Source of the DNA: Corallococcus sp. AS-1-6
GTDB lineage: Bacteria; Myxococcota; Myxococcia; Myxococcales; Myxococcaceae
Assembly: GCF_020037015.1 (NCBI RefSeq)
Contig: NZ_JAIQDE010000020.1
Location: 1-64,000 of the forward strand
Direction: 5' to 3'
DNA length: 64,000 nt
Below are positions 56,499 through 64,000 of this stretch, in pieces. The notes beneath the pieces are model-generated. The model saw only the letters and a list, made by a program, of their open reading frames with translations, was not told the origin of the DNA and did no database searches. The position numbers and the translations under genes are program-made. The stretch's first letter is position 1. Every line of letters begins with the position of its first letter.

Positions 56499-57902
56499 CT
56501 ACGGGTGGGCGTGGCCCTCGTGGCCGGGGGCGCCGGTGCCACGCGAGCGCGGAGGCGGCAGGGCGCTGAAGCCGGGGGCGTCCGGGTTTCCGCCCGACAG
56601 CACCAGCGCGTAGATGAGCGGCGCGGACGGGGGCACCTCACGGCCGTTCACCAGCACCAGCGGCGTGCCCTGGATGTTGAAGCGCATGGCGTATTCAACG
56701 TCCTGGCGCAGCTTCCCGATGGTCTCCGGCGCCGTCATGCACCCCTCGAGCTGCGGGCGCGCCACGGAGCCGGAGCTGGCGATCTCCATCACCTTGTCCG
56801 TGTCCAGGAAGGCCTGCGCGGCGAAGAGCTTCTCGCGCAGCTCCCAGAAGTCCTTCGCGCCCTCCAGGCACACCGTGGCCCGGGCCGCGGCGCAGCGCAC
56901 GCTGAGCGCGTCCGGTCCGCGGTTGGGGATGGCCGGGTTGCACTGGCCATCCAGCGGGAACTGGCGCGCCTCCACGGACAGCGAGCCCTTGGGGGCGTGC
57001 TGCTTGATGAGGGCCAGCTCCTCCACCAGCGCCTTGCAGTGGGGGCACTTGCTGTCCGTCCACTCCAGCACCTTCACCGGCGCGTCCGCGGGGCCGTAGA
57101 GGGCGCGCGGCGGGTAGGCCGCGAGCTTCGGCGTGGCCGACCGGTACACGGCGAGCGCGTCCGACAGGAACTGGCGCTGCTGCGGATCCAGGCTGGTGAT
57201 GAACTCCGGCAGCGTGGTCGGCGGCGCGGGCGGAGGCGGGGTGCTGCTGGAGCTGTCCGGCGTCCGCGTCTGGGTGGAGGCCACCGGCGGCAGGAAGGCG
57301 CCGGCCTTGGGCGCGTGCGGCGTGGCCCGGCCGGGCATCAGCATGGCCACGAAGGCGACGGCGGAGATGCCCACGGTCCACTGGAGCGTGCCGCCCCACT
57401 CGCCCGCCTGGGGCATCAGGGGGCCGGGCAGGCCGCGCCACGCCACGCCCGCGAACGCGAGCACCAGCACGTAGGTGCCCAGGCACGTGGGGCACACCAC
57501 GCCCACGCTCGCGCTGACGCTGGCGAACACGGCGACGGAGACGACGCCCGCGGCCGCCAGCAGGCGCAGGCCGCTGGCCGCCGGACGCACCGAGCGGCCC
57601 GCCTTCGCCCACGCGAGGTACAGCGCGGCGAGGCCCACGGCGGACAATCCCCACACGAGCCCCAGGCCCGCGATGGGGATGCCCAGCGTGTCGTGCACGG
57701 CGCTGGCGAAGTCCGAGTTCCAGACGGTCTCGCAGTTGACGTGCTCATTGATGCCGCAGCTCGTGGCGCCACCGGCGCGCAGCGTGAGCAGCTCCATCCA
57801 TTGGTAGACGGCGAGCGCACTGGTGAGGAGGCCCAGCACCAGCAGCGCGAGTGCGCCACGGGTGGGGACGGGGGCGGCCGGGGTCGGGGCCTTCTTGCTC
57901 AT
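56499..57902 (-). CDS. VKOR-DsbA fusion, disulfide-bond formation protein
   Basis: A 467-residue membrane protein. Residues 15-190 form a vitamin K epoxide reductase domain with four to five helices; Cys49 and Cys57 are the loop pair and Cys137-Cys140 (CPTC) the quinone-side pair. A Pro/Ser/Thr-rich linker (about 200-235) leads to a periplasmic DsbA-like thioredoxin domain with Cys286-Cys289 (CPHC). Both redox centres are complete, so the fusion can oxidise substrates and pass electrons to quinones by itself. Its ATG overlaps the cupin stop (ATGA). Confidence 0.93.
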   Translation of the reverse strand: MSKKAPTPAAPVPTRGALALLVLGLLTSALAVYQWMELLTLRAGGATSCGINEHVNCETVWNSDFASAVHDTLGIPIAGLGLVWGLSAVGLAALYLAWAKAGRSVRPAASGLRLLAAAGVVSVAVFASVSASVGVVCPTCLGTYVLVLAFAGVAWRGLPGPLMPQAGEWGGTLQWTVGISAVAFVAMLMPGRATPHAPKAGAFLPPVASTQTRTPDSSSSTPPPPAPPTTLPEFITSLDPQQRQFLSDALAVYRSATPKLAAYPPRALYGPADAPVKVLEWTDSKCPHCKALVEELALIKQHAPKGSLSVEARQFPLDGQCNPAIPNRGPDALSVRCAAARATVCLEGAKDFWELREKLFAAQAFLDTDKVMEIASSGSVARPQLEGCMTAPETIGKLRQDVEYAMRFNIQGTPLVLVNGREVPPSAPLIYALVLSGGNPDAPGFSALPPPRSRGTGAPGHEGHAHP

Positions 57903-59400: not shown

Positions 59401-60495
59401 CTAGCGCCGGTGCTGGAGGGACAGACCGAGCAGCCCCGTGGGTGCGGGGGACGCGGCGCCAGAGGTCGCGTCGCGGGGTGAAGGCCGCCAACTGCCCCCC
59501 AGCGTGGCCCGGACCGCGTGGTGGTCGACATACCAACTGAGGCCTCCCTCCAGCCGAAGGCCGCGAGCGGAGTCCTCCAGTCCCTCGCCAGCGGTCCTGG
59601 CCACCATCACCCACGGCTCCATCACGGTGGCCCCCGGGCCGGGCAGGTTGACGCCCGCGCGGACATGCGCGAGCAGCGCGCGTCCCTTTGCGGAGGCCAC
59701 CTGGTGAAGCTCGGCCGAGAGCACCACCGGGCGCAGGCGCAGCAACGCGTCCACTCCCAACGAATGGGCATCACCCACCGCGTCCGTGCTGCCCTGCAGC
59801 GCGAGGGTGAGGCCCTGCCGGAGGCCCAGGTCATTCATGGGCAGGCCGAGGGCGTACGTCTCCGCCTCGGGCATCCCCAGGGTGAGGGCGGCGCGGGCCA
59901 GCAGCAGCGGCGGGCGCCCTTCTCCCTCCGGCCCGGGCCGGGCCATCACCACGCCCGCGTCGTAGCGCACGCTCCAGCCCTGCCTCAGCACCAGCCCTCC
60001 CACGTCCAACCCCGGAGCCCGCCCCGCCCCCGCTCCGGTGAGGTACTGGCGCAGGGGGCCCTGGGTGAAGGCCTTGTCGAGCGAGTCCACCACGAAGCCA
60101 CTGGTGAGGCTCTCGCGGCCCAGTTGGGGACGAAACCACCCCACGCTCAGCCAGACCTGATGGGGCAGCACGGTGAAGGTGGCGCTGGCCTCATGAAGGG
60201 CGGGCGACGGCCCCCGGACCGGACCGGGCAGCAGGGTCACTCCGTCGAAGGACACCTCCACCGAGCCCCGCACCCACTCCAACCCGCGCAGGCGCACCCC
60301 CACGCGCCCCCGCCGCAGGCGCACGGTCGCTGAGTCCCCGGCCCGGAGCTGCTGGTCGAGGCGCACCTGGAGCCCCTCCTCGAGCTCCAGCCGCGGCCCC
60401 GCCTCCTTCTCGGCCTGGGCCGGCAGCGGCAGGCCGGCCATGGCCAGCAGCCCGAGGGACAGCAGGGCCCGCCTGATGGGAATCGCGCTCGCCAC
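59401..60495 (-). CDS. Predicted outer-membrane porin-like protein
   Basis: A 364-residue exported protein. The signal peptide (RRALLSLGLLAMAGLPLPAQA) follows a GTG start at 60495. Mature part: a Glu-rich first strand then many amphipathic beta strands (QVWLSVGWFRPQLGRESL, LTLALQGSTDAVGDAHSLG) as in phosphate-selective (OprP/OprO-type) porins. The length is a little short for 16 strands. It is the last gene of the thioredoxin-rhodanese-SoxB-like-DoxX operon, suggesting anion uptake, perhaps sulfur oxyanions. That role is inferred only from context. Confidence 0.7.
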   Translation of the reverse strand: MASAIPIRRALLSLGLLAMAGLPLPAQAEKEAGPRLELEEGLQVRLDQQLRAGDSATVRLRRGRVGVRLRGLEWVRGSVEVSFDGVTLLPGPVRGPSPALHEASATFTVLPHQVWLSVGWFRPQLGRESLTSGFVVDSLDKAFTQGPLRQYLTGAGAGRAPGLDVGGLVLRQGWSVRYDAGVVMARPGPEGEGRPPLLLARAALTLGMPEAETYALGLPMNDLGLRQGLTLALQGSTDAVGDAHSLGVDALLRLRPVVLSAELHQVASAKGRALLAHVRAGVNLPGPGATVMEPWVMVARTAGEGLEDSARGLRLEGGLSWYVDHHAVRATLGGSWRPSPRDATSGAASPAPTGLLGLSLQHRR

Positions 60496-60631
60496 GGGAC
60501 GGAGCGCTACGCCCCGTCCGGGCGGGCGCCGGGGGCCTGGGACGGCGCCGCGACGAGGGGGCCGAGGACGGGCGGCAGGGTGCGGTTCAATCGAACACCT
60601 CCACTTCCAGGTCGACACGGGGGACGGGCGG

Positions 60632-61507
60632 CTAGAGCTCCACCGAGCGGAAGCCCTCGGCCTGCCGCTGGAGGGCCTCCACGAGGCCGTTCTCCACCAC
60701 CTCCACGGAGGGTGACAGCGCGGCCGGGGCAATCCCCTTCTCCGCCAGGGTGAGCCCGCACGCGACCACCCGGATGCCGGCCTGCTTCGCCTCCACGAGC
60801 CGCGCCTCCATGGCGTCCCCCGCGAGGAGCGAGGTGATCGCGGGCCCGCACACCAGCACCTCCACCTCTCGCGCGGGAAAGCCGAGCCCCTTGAGCGACT
60901 GTTGGCCGGCGGCCAGCGCGGCCTTGAGCTGGGGTGGCTGCTGCACCAGGAAGAACACCCGCTCCGTGGAGCCCGCGCCGCGTCCGGCCGGGACACCGGG
61001 GGCCAGAGGCTGTCGCGCGAGCGCCGGCAGCGCCAGGGCCAGGGCCAGGACGCCCACCGCGCCCGCCACCGGGAGCCGGAGTCGGGGGCGCGAGGCCAGC
61101 CATGCGTCGACGCTGACGGGGCCCGCGCCCTCCACGGCCCAGTGCAGCAGTCCGCCCAGGAGGGCCACGTTCTTGAAGAGCGGCCCCATGCCCCCGGCGG
61201 CGCCCACCTGCACGGTGAGGGTGATGGGGACCAGCACGGCGAAGAGCGCGACGGCGGCCCAGCGCGTGAGCGTCCCGGTGAGCAGGGCCACCCCGCCGAG
61301 CAGCAGCACCGCGCCGCTCAGCACGACCAGCATCCGGGGAGAGGCCAGCCCGCTGACGAGGGCGGCCCCCGGGGCCTCCGCCAGGCGCCCCACGATGGTG
61401 TCAGGAGCGAGCAGGTGCTTCGCGCCAGCGGTGAGGAAGATGAGGCTGAAGAGGCCGCGGAACGCGACCTGCGTGGCGGCACGAAGCCTGGGAGCGTGAA
61501 GGTTCAT
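60632..61507 (-). CDS. DoxX-type membrane domain fused to a DsrE-like sulfur carrier domain
   Basis: A 291-residue fusion. Residues 1-155 form a DoxX-like membrane domain with four to five helices (GLFSLIFLTAGAKHLLAPD, WAAVALFAVLVPITLTV). From about 175 to 291 is a DsrE/DsrF-like domain (ERVFFLVQQPPQLKAAL, VEVLVCGPAI, IRVVACGLTLAEKGI) with Cys residues at the sulfur-carrier places. DsrE-type proteins carry persulfides in sulfur transfer. The ATG at 61507 follows AAGGA, 35 bp after the SoxB-like gene. Confidence 0.82.
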   Translation of the reverse strand: MNLHAPRLRAATQVAFRGLFSLIFLTAGAKHLLAPDTIVGRLAEAPGAALVSGLASPRMLVVLSGAVLLLGGVALLTGTLTRWAAVALFAVLVPITLTVQVGAAGGMGPLFKNVALLGGLLHWAVEGAGPVSVDAWLASRPRLRLPVAGAVGVLALALALPALARQPLAPGVPAGRGAGSTERVFFLVQQPPQLKAALAAGQQSLKGLGFPAREVEVLVCGPAITSLLAGDAMEARLVEAKQAGIRVVACGLTLAEKGIAPAALSPSVEVVENGLVEALQRQAEGFRSVEL

Positions 61508-61542
61508 TTGAGGGTCCTTGGAAGGGTTGGGGGAGCGGGAGC

Positions 61543-63153
61543 TCACTGGGGGAGCTGCTGGGTGCGCAGCACCGGGGGGAGGTCCTCGCCCACCGCGCGG
61601 CCCTCCAGCGCGTCGTGCAGCCGCGGATTGCCGGCGAGGAAGCGGCGCAACGCCTCATGCGCGTCCACGTCCAGGACGCGCGGCTCCTGGACGCCGGGGA
61701 TGCGGCAGACCATGTCCGGGGCATCCCCTTCCCGCTCGCAGGCCGTCACGGTGTAGAGGCGCGCGTCGTCCACCGGCTCGCCGCCGACCTCCAGGGCCAG
61801 GAGCCGCTGCCCCTTGGGCGCGCCCGCGCGGAAGCGCAGCGTCATCCCCGAGGGGCGCGGCAGCCACCCGCCGAAGCGCTTCTCCGGGTCCTTCGCGAAG
61901 ACGTTCTCCAGCTCCTGCTCCCAGAAGGCTCGCAGTTGGCGGCCACTCACCTTGCCCGTCTTCAGCTTGTTGACGATGGGGAAGACGTTCCACAGGTCCG
62001 CCTCGCGCACCGGCCCGGGCAGCAGCGGCGTGCCGAAGCGGAAGCCATTGGAGAGGCCGATTTGCGTCCCGCCAGCGGCGCGGATGGCGTCGGCCAGCAC
62101 GTTGTCCAGCGGGTTCTCCACCACCGCGTAGCGCGCGAGCGTCACGCCGGTGTGGCCCACCGCGGGGGCCAGCGCCGCCTCGTGCGGCGCGAGCGCGGCA
62201 TCCACGAGTCGCGCCACCTCCGGGTCCTCGGGGAAGCGCGAGGCGGTCAGCTCGATGAGCTCCCAACGGCGGTCCACCACCTTCCCCGCCTCCACCCACA
62301 AGTCCAGCCGGCCGAGGAAGGAGCCGAAGGCGCCGGGCTCCACCACCCAACTGCCGGCCTGCTCGATGGGCACCTCGGTGCGCTCGTGCGTGTCGCCGGA
62401 CAGGTGGACGTCCACGCCGGGCACGCGGGCGGCGAGCCCCACCGCCTTGGCGAGCCCCACGTGCGTCATCAGCAGCACCACCTGGGCACCCTCGCGCTCG
62501 CGCACCTCCCGCACCAGCGCGGGCAGCGCCTCGGGGCCGTCGTAGCGCAGGCCCTGGCTGTAACCCGGGGGCTGGCGGCGCGGGACGTCCGGATCCGTGA
62601 AGCCGACGACGGCCACCTTCACGCCGCCCACCTCCTTCACCAGGTACGGCGGGAAGAGCCGCTCGCCGCTCCTCGCGTCGCGCAGGTTCGCGGCGATGAG
62701 CGGGTGCTTCAGCTCGCGGGCGCGCTGCCGCAGCACCTCGGGGCCGTACACCACCTCCCAGTTGCCGGGCACCGCACCGTCCAAGCCCAGCGCGTTCAGC
62801 GGCTCGATGAGGGCGCGGCCCTCGGTGAGCGCCGCCGCCCCCGACCCCTGGAGCGTGTCCCCCGCGTCGAGCACCAGCACGTCACCGCCGCGCTCGGCGC
62901 GGATCCGCTGGATGGCGGCGGCCACGCGGGCGAAGCCGCCGGCCTCCTCGATGCGCTCCTTCCCATCGCGCCAGAACAGCTCCGGGTGGGCGCGCAGTTG
63001 CGCGTGCAGGTCCGCCACGAAGAGGACGGTGAGCTGCTCGCGCCGGGGCGTATGGGCGCGGGCGGCCAGGGAGCCCGGCCGCGTCAGGGCACAGCCGGAG
63101 CCCAGGCCGCCCAGCGCGAACAGCGCGCCGAGCAGGGAGAACAGACGCATCAT
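61543..63153 (-). CDS. SoxB-like dinuclear-metal hydrolase lipoprotein
   Basis: A 536-residue lipoprotein (lipobox GLGSGCAL) of the 5'-nucleotidase superfamily. Metallophosphatase motifs: VADLHAQLR, DAGDTLQGSGAAAL, GNWEVVYG, LMTHVGL and SGDTHERT. The C-terminal domain begins at about 340 (NPLDNVLADAIRAA, GFRFGTPLLPGPVREADLWN). GNWE lacks the His-Asp dyad of nucleotidases (GNHExD), as SoxB does, and the RFGTPLLPG region resembles SoxB. SoxB cleaves sulfate from protein-bound thiosulfate. The usual GHTH is GDTH here. Neighbouring rhodanese and DsrE genes support a sulfur role. Confidence 0.8.
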   Translation of the reverse strand: MMRLFSLLGALFALGGLGSGCALTRPGSLAARAHTPRREQLTVLFVADLHAQLRAHPELFWRDGKERIEEAGGFARVAAAIQRIRAERGGDVLVLDAGDTLQGSGAAALTEGRALIEPLNALGLDGAVPGNWEVVYGPEVLRQRARELKHPLIAANLRDARSGERLFPPYLVKEVGGVKVAVVGFTDPDVPRRQPPGYSQGLRYDGPEALPALVREVREREGAQVVLLMTHVGLAKAVGLAARVPGVDVHLSGDTHERTEVPIEQAGSWVVEPGAFGSFLGRLDLWVEAGKVVDRRWELIELTASRFPEDPEVARLVDAALAPHEAALAPAVGHTGVTLARYAVVENPLDNVLADAIRAAGGTQIGLSNGFRFGTPLLPGPVREADLWNVFPIVNKLKTGKVSGRQLRAFWEQELENVFAKDPEKRFGGWLPRPSGMTLRFRAGAPKGQRLLALEVGGEPVDDARLYTVTACEREGDAPDMVCRIPGVQEPRVLDVDAHEALRRFLAGNPRLHDALEGRAVGEDLPPVLRTQQLPQ

Positions 63154-63249
63154 CGTGAAGCACCTTGGGTGAGGGGATCAGCGGATGGGACACGAGGCGC
63201 GCCGCGAGAAGTTCCCGCGGCGGGCCGGCGCCCCGGCCACCTCCACCCG

Positions 63250-63597
63250 TCACTCCCAGGCCGACATGGGGCCCAGGTTGAAGACGTCCTGGAAGCCGCG
63301 CTCCTTCAGGAAGAGCTCGGCGCGGCGGCTGCGCGCTCCACTGCGGCAGTAGACGACGAGGGGCTTCCGCGGCGAGCCGAGCTCGGCGAACCGCTGGGAC
63401 AGCTCCTCCACGGGGATGTTCACCGCCCCGGGAAGGTGCCCAGCGGCGAACTCCTCCGGCGTGCGGACATCCACCAGCGTCGCACCGGCCTCCACCCGCT
63501 GGTGGGCCTCGGCTCCGGCGGAGCGAGAGTGCGCACAGGAGACGAGGAACGGAGCGGCGGCCAGGACGGCGACGACGACGACGAGGACGGACTTCAC
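63250..63597 (-). CDS. Rhodanese-domain lipoprotein
   Basis: A 115-residue single-domain sulfurtransferase. The signal peptide carries a lipobox (FLVSCAH, Cys21). The rhodanese fold has LVDVRTPEEFAAGHLPGAVNIP and active-site Cys84 in VVYCRSGARSRRA. It would transfer sulfane sulfur to a thiol acceptor on the periplasmic side of the membrane. It lies between the thioredoxin-like and SoxB-like genes, same strand, 96 bp before the latter. Confidence 0.9.
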   Translation of the reverse strand: MKSVLVVVVAVLAAAPFLVSCAHSRSAGAEAHQRVEAGATLVDVRTPEEFAAGHLPGAVNIPVEELSQRFAELGSPRKPLVVYCRSGARSRRAELFLKERGFQDVFNLGPMSAWE

Positions 63598-63623
63598 GGA
63601 GCGGCTCCCATCAGGCCCGGAGG

Positions 63624-63659
63624 CCCGCGAGTGCCCCTGGGAAGTGGGGCACGCGCGGG
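63624..63659. other. Hairpin between thioredoxin-like and rhodanese genes
   Basis: A 13-bp stem (CCCGCG, GTGCCCC with GGGGCAC, CGCGGG; one mismatch) and an eight-base loop. No T run, so it may be an attenuator or mRNA-stability element within the operon. Confidence 0.5.
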
Positions 63660-63702
63660 GTGAGAGCCACCCCGGCGCGGAAAGGATTCTCCCCGCCTGG
63701 CG

Positions 63703-64000
63703 TCAGGAGCCCGAGCCGCCGCCGCTCGCGGGCAGGGCGTGGGGCGCGCCCGGAAGGAGGAGCCCGGCACAGCGGATCCCCGCGATGGACTCCAGGCCCT
63801 CCCGCAGTGACGTCAGGGACTGCTCGCCCATACGGCGCGCCACCTCCTGGCCCGCGCCATCCAGGAAGATGAACGTCGGCACGCCGCGGATGCCGTAACG
63901 AGCGGCGGCCTGCCGTCCCTCGGCGGTCCCGACATCGAGGCGAAGAACGCCGACGCCCTGTCCCGCGCAATGGTGCCCGGCCAGGGCCACCACGGGCTCC
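63703..64000 (-). CDS. Thioredoxin-like protein, N-terminus beyond the window
   Basis: The C-terminal 99 residues of a thioredoxin fold. VRLDVGTAEGRQAAARYGIRGVPTFIFLDGAG contains the cis-Pro loop (RGVPTFIF). The CxxC active site would lie just outside the window; the frame is open to the edge with EPVVALAGHH, which fits the helix after that site. The tail is Gly/Ser-rich. It heads the minus-strand sulfur operon and could supply electrons to the sulfur enzymes. Confidence 0.78.
   Translation of the reverse strand, partial: EPVVALAGHHCAGQGVGVLRLDVGTAEGRQAAARYGIRGVPTFIFLDGAGQEVARRMGEQSLTSLREGLESIAGIRCAGLLLPGAPHALPASGGGSGS

Follow-up and report, generated by a model that had tools for sequence, protein, structure and literature searches.

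The window analysed here, the first 64,000 bases of contig 12 (174 kb) in the 9.5-Mb genome of Corallococcus sp. AS-1-6, ends within a minus-strand operon whose central gene codes for an exported SoxB-like lipoprotein, accompanied by a rhodanese and a DoxX-DsrE fusion protein (Table 1). The operon is real and conserved, its hydrolase falls outside the nucleotidases, and it represents a variant of SoxB-family sulfur handling that does without SoxYZ, a principle that has already been published. By computation, we determined the family placement and active-site residues of the hydrolase, its association with sulfur genes, the absence of SoxY and SoxZ, and a cysteine that is invariant in the accompanying DsrE proteins. 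In the Sox cycle, SoxAX, a relative of TsdA, is reported to load thiosulfate on SoxYZ, from which SoxB removes the sulfonate (PMC5336275). A preliminary description of the window had listed five same-strand genes in the operon; the frames of the rhodanese lipoprotein, the SoxB-like lipoprotein and the DoxX-containing protein were confirmed, whereas the thioredoxin and porin calls had to be revised, as described below.

The best NCBIfam match of the hydrolase was the SoxB family TIGR04486, with 279.3 bits (274.5 bits in the genome search) against a curated cut-off of 550 bits, and the next family scored 102 bits. In a search of the Protein Data Bank (PDB), Thermus SoxB ranked at the top with 171 bits, while the best nucleotidase reached 115 bits. 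When aligned with five canonical SoxB proteins, E. coli UshA and other nucleotidases, the hydrolase exhibited the motifs GNWEVVYG, SGDTHERT, SNGFRFG and RFGGWLPR. The columns concerned correspond to the presumed metal ligands and the catalytic pair of the UshA and SoxB structures. GNHEFD of UshA is replaced with GNWEVV, in which Trp stands for the catalytic His and Val for the Asp, and the second metal motif is SGDTHE, compared with GHTHD in SoxB and GHSQD in UshA. The lack of the nucleotidase His-Asp dyad and the atypical GDTH motif had been pointed out previously, and the alignment bears out both. The Trp of GNWE/GHWE and the arginines of FR(W/F/Y)G and GG...R are common to the hydrolase and SoxB and absent from the aligned nucleotidases; the residue before the Trp is Asn, as in nucleotidases, whereas canonical SoxB has His there. 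W132, R372 and R433 were invariant in all 32 rows of one alignment (A3), and GNW was invariant in all 26 rows of another (A5), although the pattern used in the species-genome scan described below favours GNW. In PDB entry 4uwq, in which SoxB is disulfide-linked to its carrier SoxYZ, a Cys occupies the position of the Trp, which would fit a location beside the cysteine of the carrier. The ratio of nonsynonymous to synonymous substitution rates (dN/dS) of the hydrolase gene was 0.16-0.18 in comparison with two orthologs. The view that both the hydrolase and the rhodanese are lipid-anchored was also upheld, as lipobox-like motifs were recognized by eye in both.

A tree was built from 50 proteins comprising 28 rows of the window clade, a second SoxB-like group, five SoxB proteins and nine nucleotidases, the last being a small sample with several long branches. 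One branch with a support of 100/99 parted SoxB, the window clade and the second SoxB-like group from the nine nucleotidases. The window clade was supported with 98/92 and stood apart from the five SoxB proteins (100/100), and an arrangement in which the window clade and SoxB were held as one clade was not clearly rejected (approximately unbiased test, p = 0.0535). Two sequences from Nitrospira and Prosthecobacter, which have His rather than the Asp of xDTHER, branched first in the clade, with a support of 92/75 for the rest, and a haloarchaeal row adjoined the clade on a long branch, its placement being unsure. Since the 100/99 branch opposes a nucleotidase assignment and the catalytic His and Asp are missing, we rejected that assignment. 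Judged from its sequence, the hydrolase is not a nucleotidase, and neither is it a canonical SoxB; it belongs to a sister clade marked by GNWE and xDTHER. The phylogenetic comparison with SoxB and nucleotidases proposed in the preliminary description therefore came out in favour of the SoxB side. An AlphaFold2 (AF2) model of the hydrolase based on 26 sequences (predicted local distance difference test, pLDDT, 90.5) was nearest to SoxB by Foldseek. Structure was dropped as a discriminator between SoxB and nucleotidases, because the structural Z scores were tied.

Conservation of the operon was examined in the order, where a hydrolase match of at least 80% identity was found in 22 of 145 genomes (the window's own genome included and G099 being partial), four of them among the 16 genomes of the genus; G144, from another family, has a 62% match. 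Among the 19 of these 22 neighbourhoods that were viewed (all except G110, G116 and G117), a rhodanese gene lies upstream of the hydrolase gene in 15, DsrE or the fusion seen in the window lies downstream in 15, and a YeiH-type exporter gene is present in 15, while an intact CcdA-thioredoxin gene is present in six. No recognized neighbour gene was found in the locus of G099 (L064). The order also has true Sox clusters with SoxY, SoxZ, SoxA and SoxX (L065-L067), which were used as controls.

Outside the order, tblastn on plasmids detected homologs with 36-43% identity in Pontibacter and two Runella, which are labelled nucleotidase where the plasmids are annotated. The immediate neighbours of the gene in both Runella code for DsrE, a c-type cytochrome and an OprD porin, and a YeeE/DUF6691 pair is also present; in Pontibacter, the cytochrome gene is adjacent and DsrE is about 6 kb off. 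The plasmid-locus cytochromes that were tested carry a SoxA/TsdA domain. A scan of species genomes with a pattern containing PGNWEV, but not xDTHER, gave at least 550 relatives (tblastn E ≤ 1e-3), not all of which necessarily belong to the window clade, and the frequency of GNWE among these hits is biased by the pattern. Neighbourhoods were counted for the best 80 of these relatives. By label, they belong to Bacteroidota (56), Planctomycetota (9), Myxococcota (7), Pseudomonadota (2), Bdellovibrionota (2), Nitrospirota (2), Verrucomicrobiota (1) and Bacillota (1). Both Pseudomonadota labels are doubtful: one locus (L092) lies in a myxobacterial genome, and the other, in a metagenome-assembled genome labelled Algicola (L154), has a Flavobacteria-type layout. 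The record of the former, Comamonas sp. KCTC 72670, is probably mislabelled and corresponds to G107, a genome of the window's own family. The xDTHER motif was found in 78 of the 80 loci, with His instead in L134 and L135 (Nitrospira and Prosthecobacter). According to simple rules, 70 proteins have an N-terminal lipobox or a hydrophobic or twin-arginine-translocation-like start; 10 failed, some of them owing to a misjudged frame start.

Neighbouring genes were identified with models built in this analysis from few seeds, some of which came from the window's own cluster. Within 3 kb of the 80 hydrolase genes, these models detected genes for dioxygenase-like (28 loci), TsdA-like (20), DUF6691 (16), TlpA (16), rhodanese (14), YeeE (13) and YeiH (11) proteins. 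DsrE was found within the same distance in 45 loci when any strand was allowed, or in 51 when only the same strand was considered and fusions were included. Gene densities per 100 kb at 0-3 kb and at 6-9 kb were 11.0 and 0.88 for DsrE, 6.9 and 1.2 for DoxX, and 4.6 and 0.29 for TsdA-like genes; those of dioxygenase and TauE genes dropped less with distance. The gene content is kept both in relatives and in other phyla; a lack of conservation in relatives, which the preliminary description had named as a refuting result, did not appear.

The second SoxB-like group lacks an obvious signal peptide and occurs in Novosphingobium, Sphingobium, Bosea, Bradyrhizobium, Hymenobacter, Sporosarcina and Cohnella (L073 5255-6700, L075 8995-10437, L076 8992-10443, L083 8989-10434, L079 7004-8437 and L078 6998-8425). 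Its motif is (A/V)HWEFA, with GNWD in two Bacilli. Members were found on plasmids of Alphaproteobacteria, Bacteroidota and Bacilli, and most of them adjoin sulfur or thiol-redox genes; of the two copies in Hymenobacter, one (L082) lacks an evident neighbour related to sulfur, and the copy of Bradyrhizobium SK17 has a shorter annotated start. This group is possibly a cytosolic sulfohydrolase.

The DoxX-DsrE fusion proposed for the window is genuine. Pfam finds only DoxX in it, and its C-terminal part is 36-52% identical to the DsrE proteins of relatives, three of which (L049, L053 and L063) were tested and matched Pfam DsrE. A hydrophobic segment (residues 144-162) precedes the DsrE part, and this extra linker, present in the fusions of the window and Pontibacter, resembles a former signal peptide. 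The DsrE part would therefore lie outside the membrane, like the free exported DsrE of relatives. In an alignment of 58 DsrE sequences (51 loci, the window and six others), a single Cys was invariant in all of them, and most had a signal-like start as judged by eye. DoxX was found within 3 kb in 30 of the 80 loci, and DsrE was also there in 23 of these (Fisher p = 0.005, uncorrected for kinship). With a split model, used because the first DoxX model included the DsrE part, DoxX was fused to DsrE within 3 kb in seven loci, of which L164 possibly has two genes, and was adjacent to it in 22; fusions adjoin SoxB-like genes in Bacteroidota. Among the 142 genomes of the order that were searched, the only other full-length fusion match was that of G021 (50% identity), which carries the fusion without the hydrolase, as its best hydrolase match is weak (E 1e-11). 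The neighbourhood of this fusion (L184) was left out of the interpretation owing to misassigned reading frames. In G144, DsrE directly follows the SoxB-like gene. A further idea, that TsdA-like proteins and DoxX serve as alternative electron outlets, was suggested by their co-occurrence within 3 kb in only one of the 80 loci (Fisher p = 4e-4, or 4e-7 for the 56 Bacteroidota alone). We do not uphold it: both are present in six loci when the entire locus is considered, and with only five independent pairs the alternation was not significant after phylogenetic control.

SoxY and SoxZ were absent genome-wide from the window's genome (G000) and likewise from G061, G063, G101 and G144, while both positive controls, G014 and G081, scored. 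Near the 80 loci, no SoxY, SoxZ or SoxX was found with the models built here, and the sole SoxA hit was a TsdA-like gene. The window's genome has one SoxA/TsdA-domain cytochrome gene elsewhere (C65, 196656-196877, minus strand; 45 bits; one CxxCH seen), which is unclustered and could be the missing partner or unrelated. Its neighbours are a metallophosphoesterase gene and a cytochrome-peroxidase-like gene. The earlier statement that SoxAXYZ is lacking thus holds for SoxY and SoxZ and has to be qualified by this cytochrome for SoxA and, as regards SoxX, by the genome-wide search having covered the other components.

Our tentative reading, for which we would put the chances at not quite even, is that the operon constitutes the periplasmic arm of a SoxYZ-free sulfane-sulfur/thiosulfate module with a SoxB-family sulfohydrolase and DsrE as the likely carrier. 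The substrate, the carrier role of DsrE, the direction of the pathway, the chemistry of DoxX and the sensing step that we infer are as follows. The loading of thiosulfate would differ between lineages, relying either on a SoxA/TsdA-type cytochrome or on quinone chemistry linked to DoxX. The exported DsrE, fused to membrane-bound DoxX in the window, would hold the conjugate on its invariant cysteine. The lipid-anchored SoxB-family enzyme would then cleave the terminal sulfonate off the S-S-SO3 conjugate to give sulfate, and the leftover sulfane sulfur would pass through the rhodanese lipoprotein to the cytoplasm, where persulfide dioxygenases would oxidize it to sulfite. Stress or the substrate would be sensed by an extracytoplasmic function (ECF) sigma factor together with its anti-sigma factor, in the outer part of which four cysteines are conserved. 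The SoxB relative is accompanied by an exported DsrE with one invariant cysteine, in some lineages also by a SoxA/TsdA relative, and not by SoxYZ; DsrE as the sulfur carrier is the simplest reading. The periplasmic sulfane-sulfur function without SoxYZ put forward in the preliminary description is supported; none of the genes seen in the cluster hints at the sulfate-ester pathway that it offered as an option.

Several observations weigh against this proposal. The cluster of the window (locus L007) contains no SoxAX or TsdA gene, the one SoxA/TsdA-domain protein of the genome being encoded elsewhere. In 29 of the 80 loci, some of which are on short contigs, the search for DsrE on the same strand within 3 kb was negative, and the myxobacterial loci L056, L059, L060 and L064 have none nearby; DsrE is therefore not the sole carrier everywhere, unless it is encoded elsewhere. 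Of the 20 loci with a TsdA-like gene within 3 kb, only six also have DsrE at this distance, fewer than expected (Fisher p = 0.009), which speaks against the loading of DsrE by TsdA as a general rule, although no depletion is seen when the entire locus is counted (12 of 21, p = 0.42). In seven of the 80 loci, two of them on contigs under 3.3 kb, none of the 12 scored sulfur or thiol gene types is present within 5 kb. The Asp of xDTHER replaces a presumed metal-site His, and the chemistry could consequently differ from that of SoxB. Finally, the structural Z scores of the AF2 model were 41.5 with SoxB (2wdc) and 41.0 with a nucleotidase (3ive), at identities of 29 and 22%, respectively.

The operon resembles several known systems in part. 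It shares with canonical Sox the Trp and Arg signature and a tree position next to SoxB, along with a modelled fold close to that of SoxB, and some relatives carry CcdA and thioredoxin as a Paracoccus sox cluster does; it differs in the score below the cut-off, in GNWE and xDTHER instead of GHWE and GHTH, in the lack of SoxYZ and in its separate clade. The two-domain architecture is that of UshA and 5'-nucleotidases, to which the modelled fold is about as close as to SoxB, whereas the catalytic His and Asp are replaced with Trp and Val and the protein lies off the nucleotidase side of the tree. The thiosulfate:quinone oxidoreductase DoxDA offers a possible parallel, since it too involves a membrane protein of the Dox family in connection with thiosulfate; unlike DoxDA, the window has DoxX rather than DoxD, and in this cluster type it is fused to or beside DsrE. 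The dioxygenase and transferase halves of the Blh sulfur transferase/dioxygenase (NF040641) are matched by the divergent neighbours as separate genes, all below the family cut-off. A published precedent is the TsdA-SoxB-SdoA/SdoB thiosulfate pathway of Erythrobacter flavus 21-3, a SoxYZ-free pathway shown genetically, for which tetrathionate was proposed as the SoxB substrate (PMC7608252). Because of this pathway, the term "undescribed" used in the preliminary description was too strong (PMC7608252). Both systems have SoxB-family hydrolases labelled nucleotidase and sulfur dioxygenase genes, with no Sox complex genes, and in the window's cluster a persulfide dioxygenase gene, assigned by homology only, lies nearby while SoxYZ is missing. 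The genes of E. flavus are reported as one thiosulfate-induced cluster (PMC7608252); the cluster of the window differs in lacking TsdA and in comprising DoxX-DsrE, an ECF pair and a rhodanese with a lipid anchor. Among the matches listed in a search of open-access papers, which leaves subscription journals mostly outside, none had a title or abstract start that describes the present clade, DsrE acting as carrier for SoxB, or a DoxX-DsrE unit.

The precedent of E. flavus also bears on the question of whether a carrier is needed at all. The enzyme might act directly on small polythionates such as tetrathionate and trithionate, without a carrier protein and with DsrE and rhodanese only accepting the released sulfane sulfur, a possibility that we consider unlikely and that is the main alternative to our reading. 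Deletion of soxB in E. flavus is reported to nearly stop sulfur formation and to cause accumulation of tetrathionate, although Sox complex genes are lacking, which shows that a SoxB-family protein can function without them (PMC7608252), and SoxB is reported to act on trithionate (PMC5336275). Two of the three SoxB-domain proteins of E. flavus share a database name with the window homologs, and DsrE is often not within 3 kb where a TsdA-like gene is. On the other hand, the window's own cluster has no TsdA-like gene, and DsrE is linked to the hydrolase more often than TsdA-like genes are (45 versus 20 of the 80 loci).

The control of the operon by an ECF/anti-sigma pair with conserved outer cysteines, a host presumed to be heterotrophic and the presence of sulfite and sulfate exporter-type genes in several loci would suit a defence or repair system, in which an ECF-induced hydrolase would strip sulfonate from S-sulfonated protein or low-molecular thiols under sulfite, polysulfide or oxidative stress, and rhodanese and DsrE would clear persulfide without energy gain. 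We regard this as rather improbable, since the TsdA-like cytochromes and DoxX of relatives suggest electron transfer and the gene set resembles the thiosulfate cluster of E. flavus. It is very improbable that the hydrolase is a nucleotidase or another phosphoesterase of the periplasm that came to lie next to sulfur genes by chance or that serves there in the salvage of phosphate or nucleotides: its nucleotidase-type C-terminal domain, the Asn before the Trp and the nearly equal alignment of its model to 3ive are in keeping with such a role, but the tree and the missing catalytic residues oppose it, and sulfur neighbours are conserved across several phyla.

Table 1. Genes of the operon and of the adjoining divergent set (contig numbering is used past the end of the window)
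Feature	Position	Strand	Remark
Unknown-fold protein, 364 aa from GTG, signal-like N-terminus	59401..60495	-	Called porin-like in the preliminary description
DoxX-DsrE fusion, 291 aa from MNLHAP	60632..61507	-	DoxX PF07681; DsrE part by alignment; Cys in VVACG
SoxB-like exported lipoprotein, 536 aa	61543..63153	-	Metallophos and 5_nucleotid_C; lipobox-like LGSGC (by eye)
Single-domain rhodanese, 115 aa	63250..63597	-	PF00581, 73.8 bits; CRSGARS; lipobox-like LVSC (by eye)
Thioredoxin-like remnant of CcdA-thioredoxin fusion	63703..64000 in the window (broken gene about 64202-63703)	-	CPVC just past 64000
Anti-sigma factor	64252-65013 (contig)	-	Zinc finger; membrane segment by eye
ECF sigma factor	65000 to about 65536-65596 (contig, past the window)	-	Upstream of the anti-sigma gene
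PDO-like (persulfide-dioxygenase-like)	65717-66409 (contig)	+	Divergent from the operon
BLH-phosphatase/TIGR01244-like sulfur transferase gene	66438-66893 (contig)	+	Divergent set
Second PDO-like gene	66929-67702 (contig)	+	Divergent set

What was previously called a thioredoxin-like gene represents the 3' portion of a CcdA-thioredoxin fusion, which is broken here and intact in six of the relatives viewed; the copy in L049 consists of DsbD_TM and Thioredoxin. Compared with L049, the window has a net loss of about 706 bp, derived from two blastn pieces separated by 6 bases in the window and 712 in L049. This loss is not a multiple of three, and the CcdA start meets the thioredoxin part out of frame. 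The dN/dS was 0.26 for the thioredoxin part alone (against L050) and 0.39-0.53 for the rhodanese. The protein called porin-like is kept at the same place in some relatives and has no Pfam match; a profile comparison with the OprD porins encoded in other clusters yielded no match (probability 0.1, from shallow alignments of three sequences each), and its AF2 model, based on three sequences, had a pLDDT of 33, so that the porin call was not sustained.

The operon continues beyond position 64,000 with genes for the anti-sigma and ECF sigma factors upstream, followed by a divergent dioxygenase/Blh-type set. SoxYZ or a cytochrome had been considered for this region; neither SoxYZ nor a TsdA-like cytochrome was found in L007. 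The functions of the divergent genes are assigned by homology only, because their Blh and TIGR01244 matches score under the NCBIfam cut-offs. In all five aligned anti-sigma factors of myxobacteria, four cysteines follow the membrane segment, and these are absent from the Bradyrhizobium protein; such an outer part would suit a redox or sulfur sensor.

Additional genes were observed around the operon and elsewhere in the genome. On the minus strand at 56499-57902 of the window, beyond the cupin and YgfZ/GcvT-like genes that follow the operon, a gene that by eye looks like a VKOR-DsbA fusion codes for a membrane part followed by CPHC. A 76-aa cysteine-rich protein without a Pfam match is encoded on the minus strand at 67978-68208 of the contig (10979-11209 of L007), and relatives with 82-91% identity are found in loci of two same-genus genomes. 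A second sulfur locus of the genome (contig C54, approximately 95.4-101.6 kb; L182) has genes for sulfide:quinone reductase-like, ECF, YeeE-like, PDO-like, rhodanese and TauE-like proteins, which are gene types that adjoin the SoxB-like cluster in relatives.

Surveys count thiosulfate oxidizers through soxB and its partner genes. In a 2025 sediment survey using the FunGene SoxB reference set, 607 of 608 soxB-bearing genomes were reported as assigned to Proteobacteria (PMC12345210). A broader proposal, which we hold to be doubtful, is that the clade is an unnamed, widespread SoxB sister family with a Sox-like cycle in which the cysteine of a periplasmic DsrE, often tied to DoxX, replaces SoxYZ as a swinging carrier, and that the nucleotidase label conceals sulfur oxidation in Bacteroidota, Planctomycetota and Myxococcota. 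The best 80 relatives found here are mostly from Bacteroidota. Should the family prove to be a sulfohydrolase, much of the sulfur oxidation by heterotrophs would have been overlooked. The question of whether DsrE can replace SoxYZ has been made testable.

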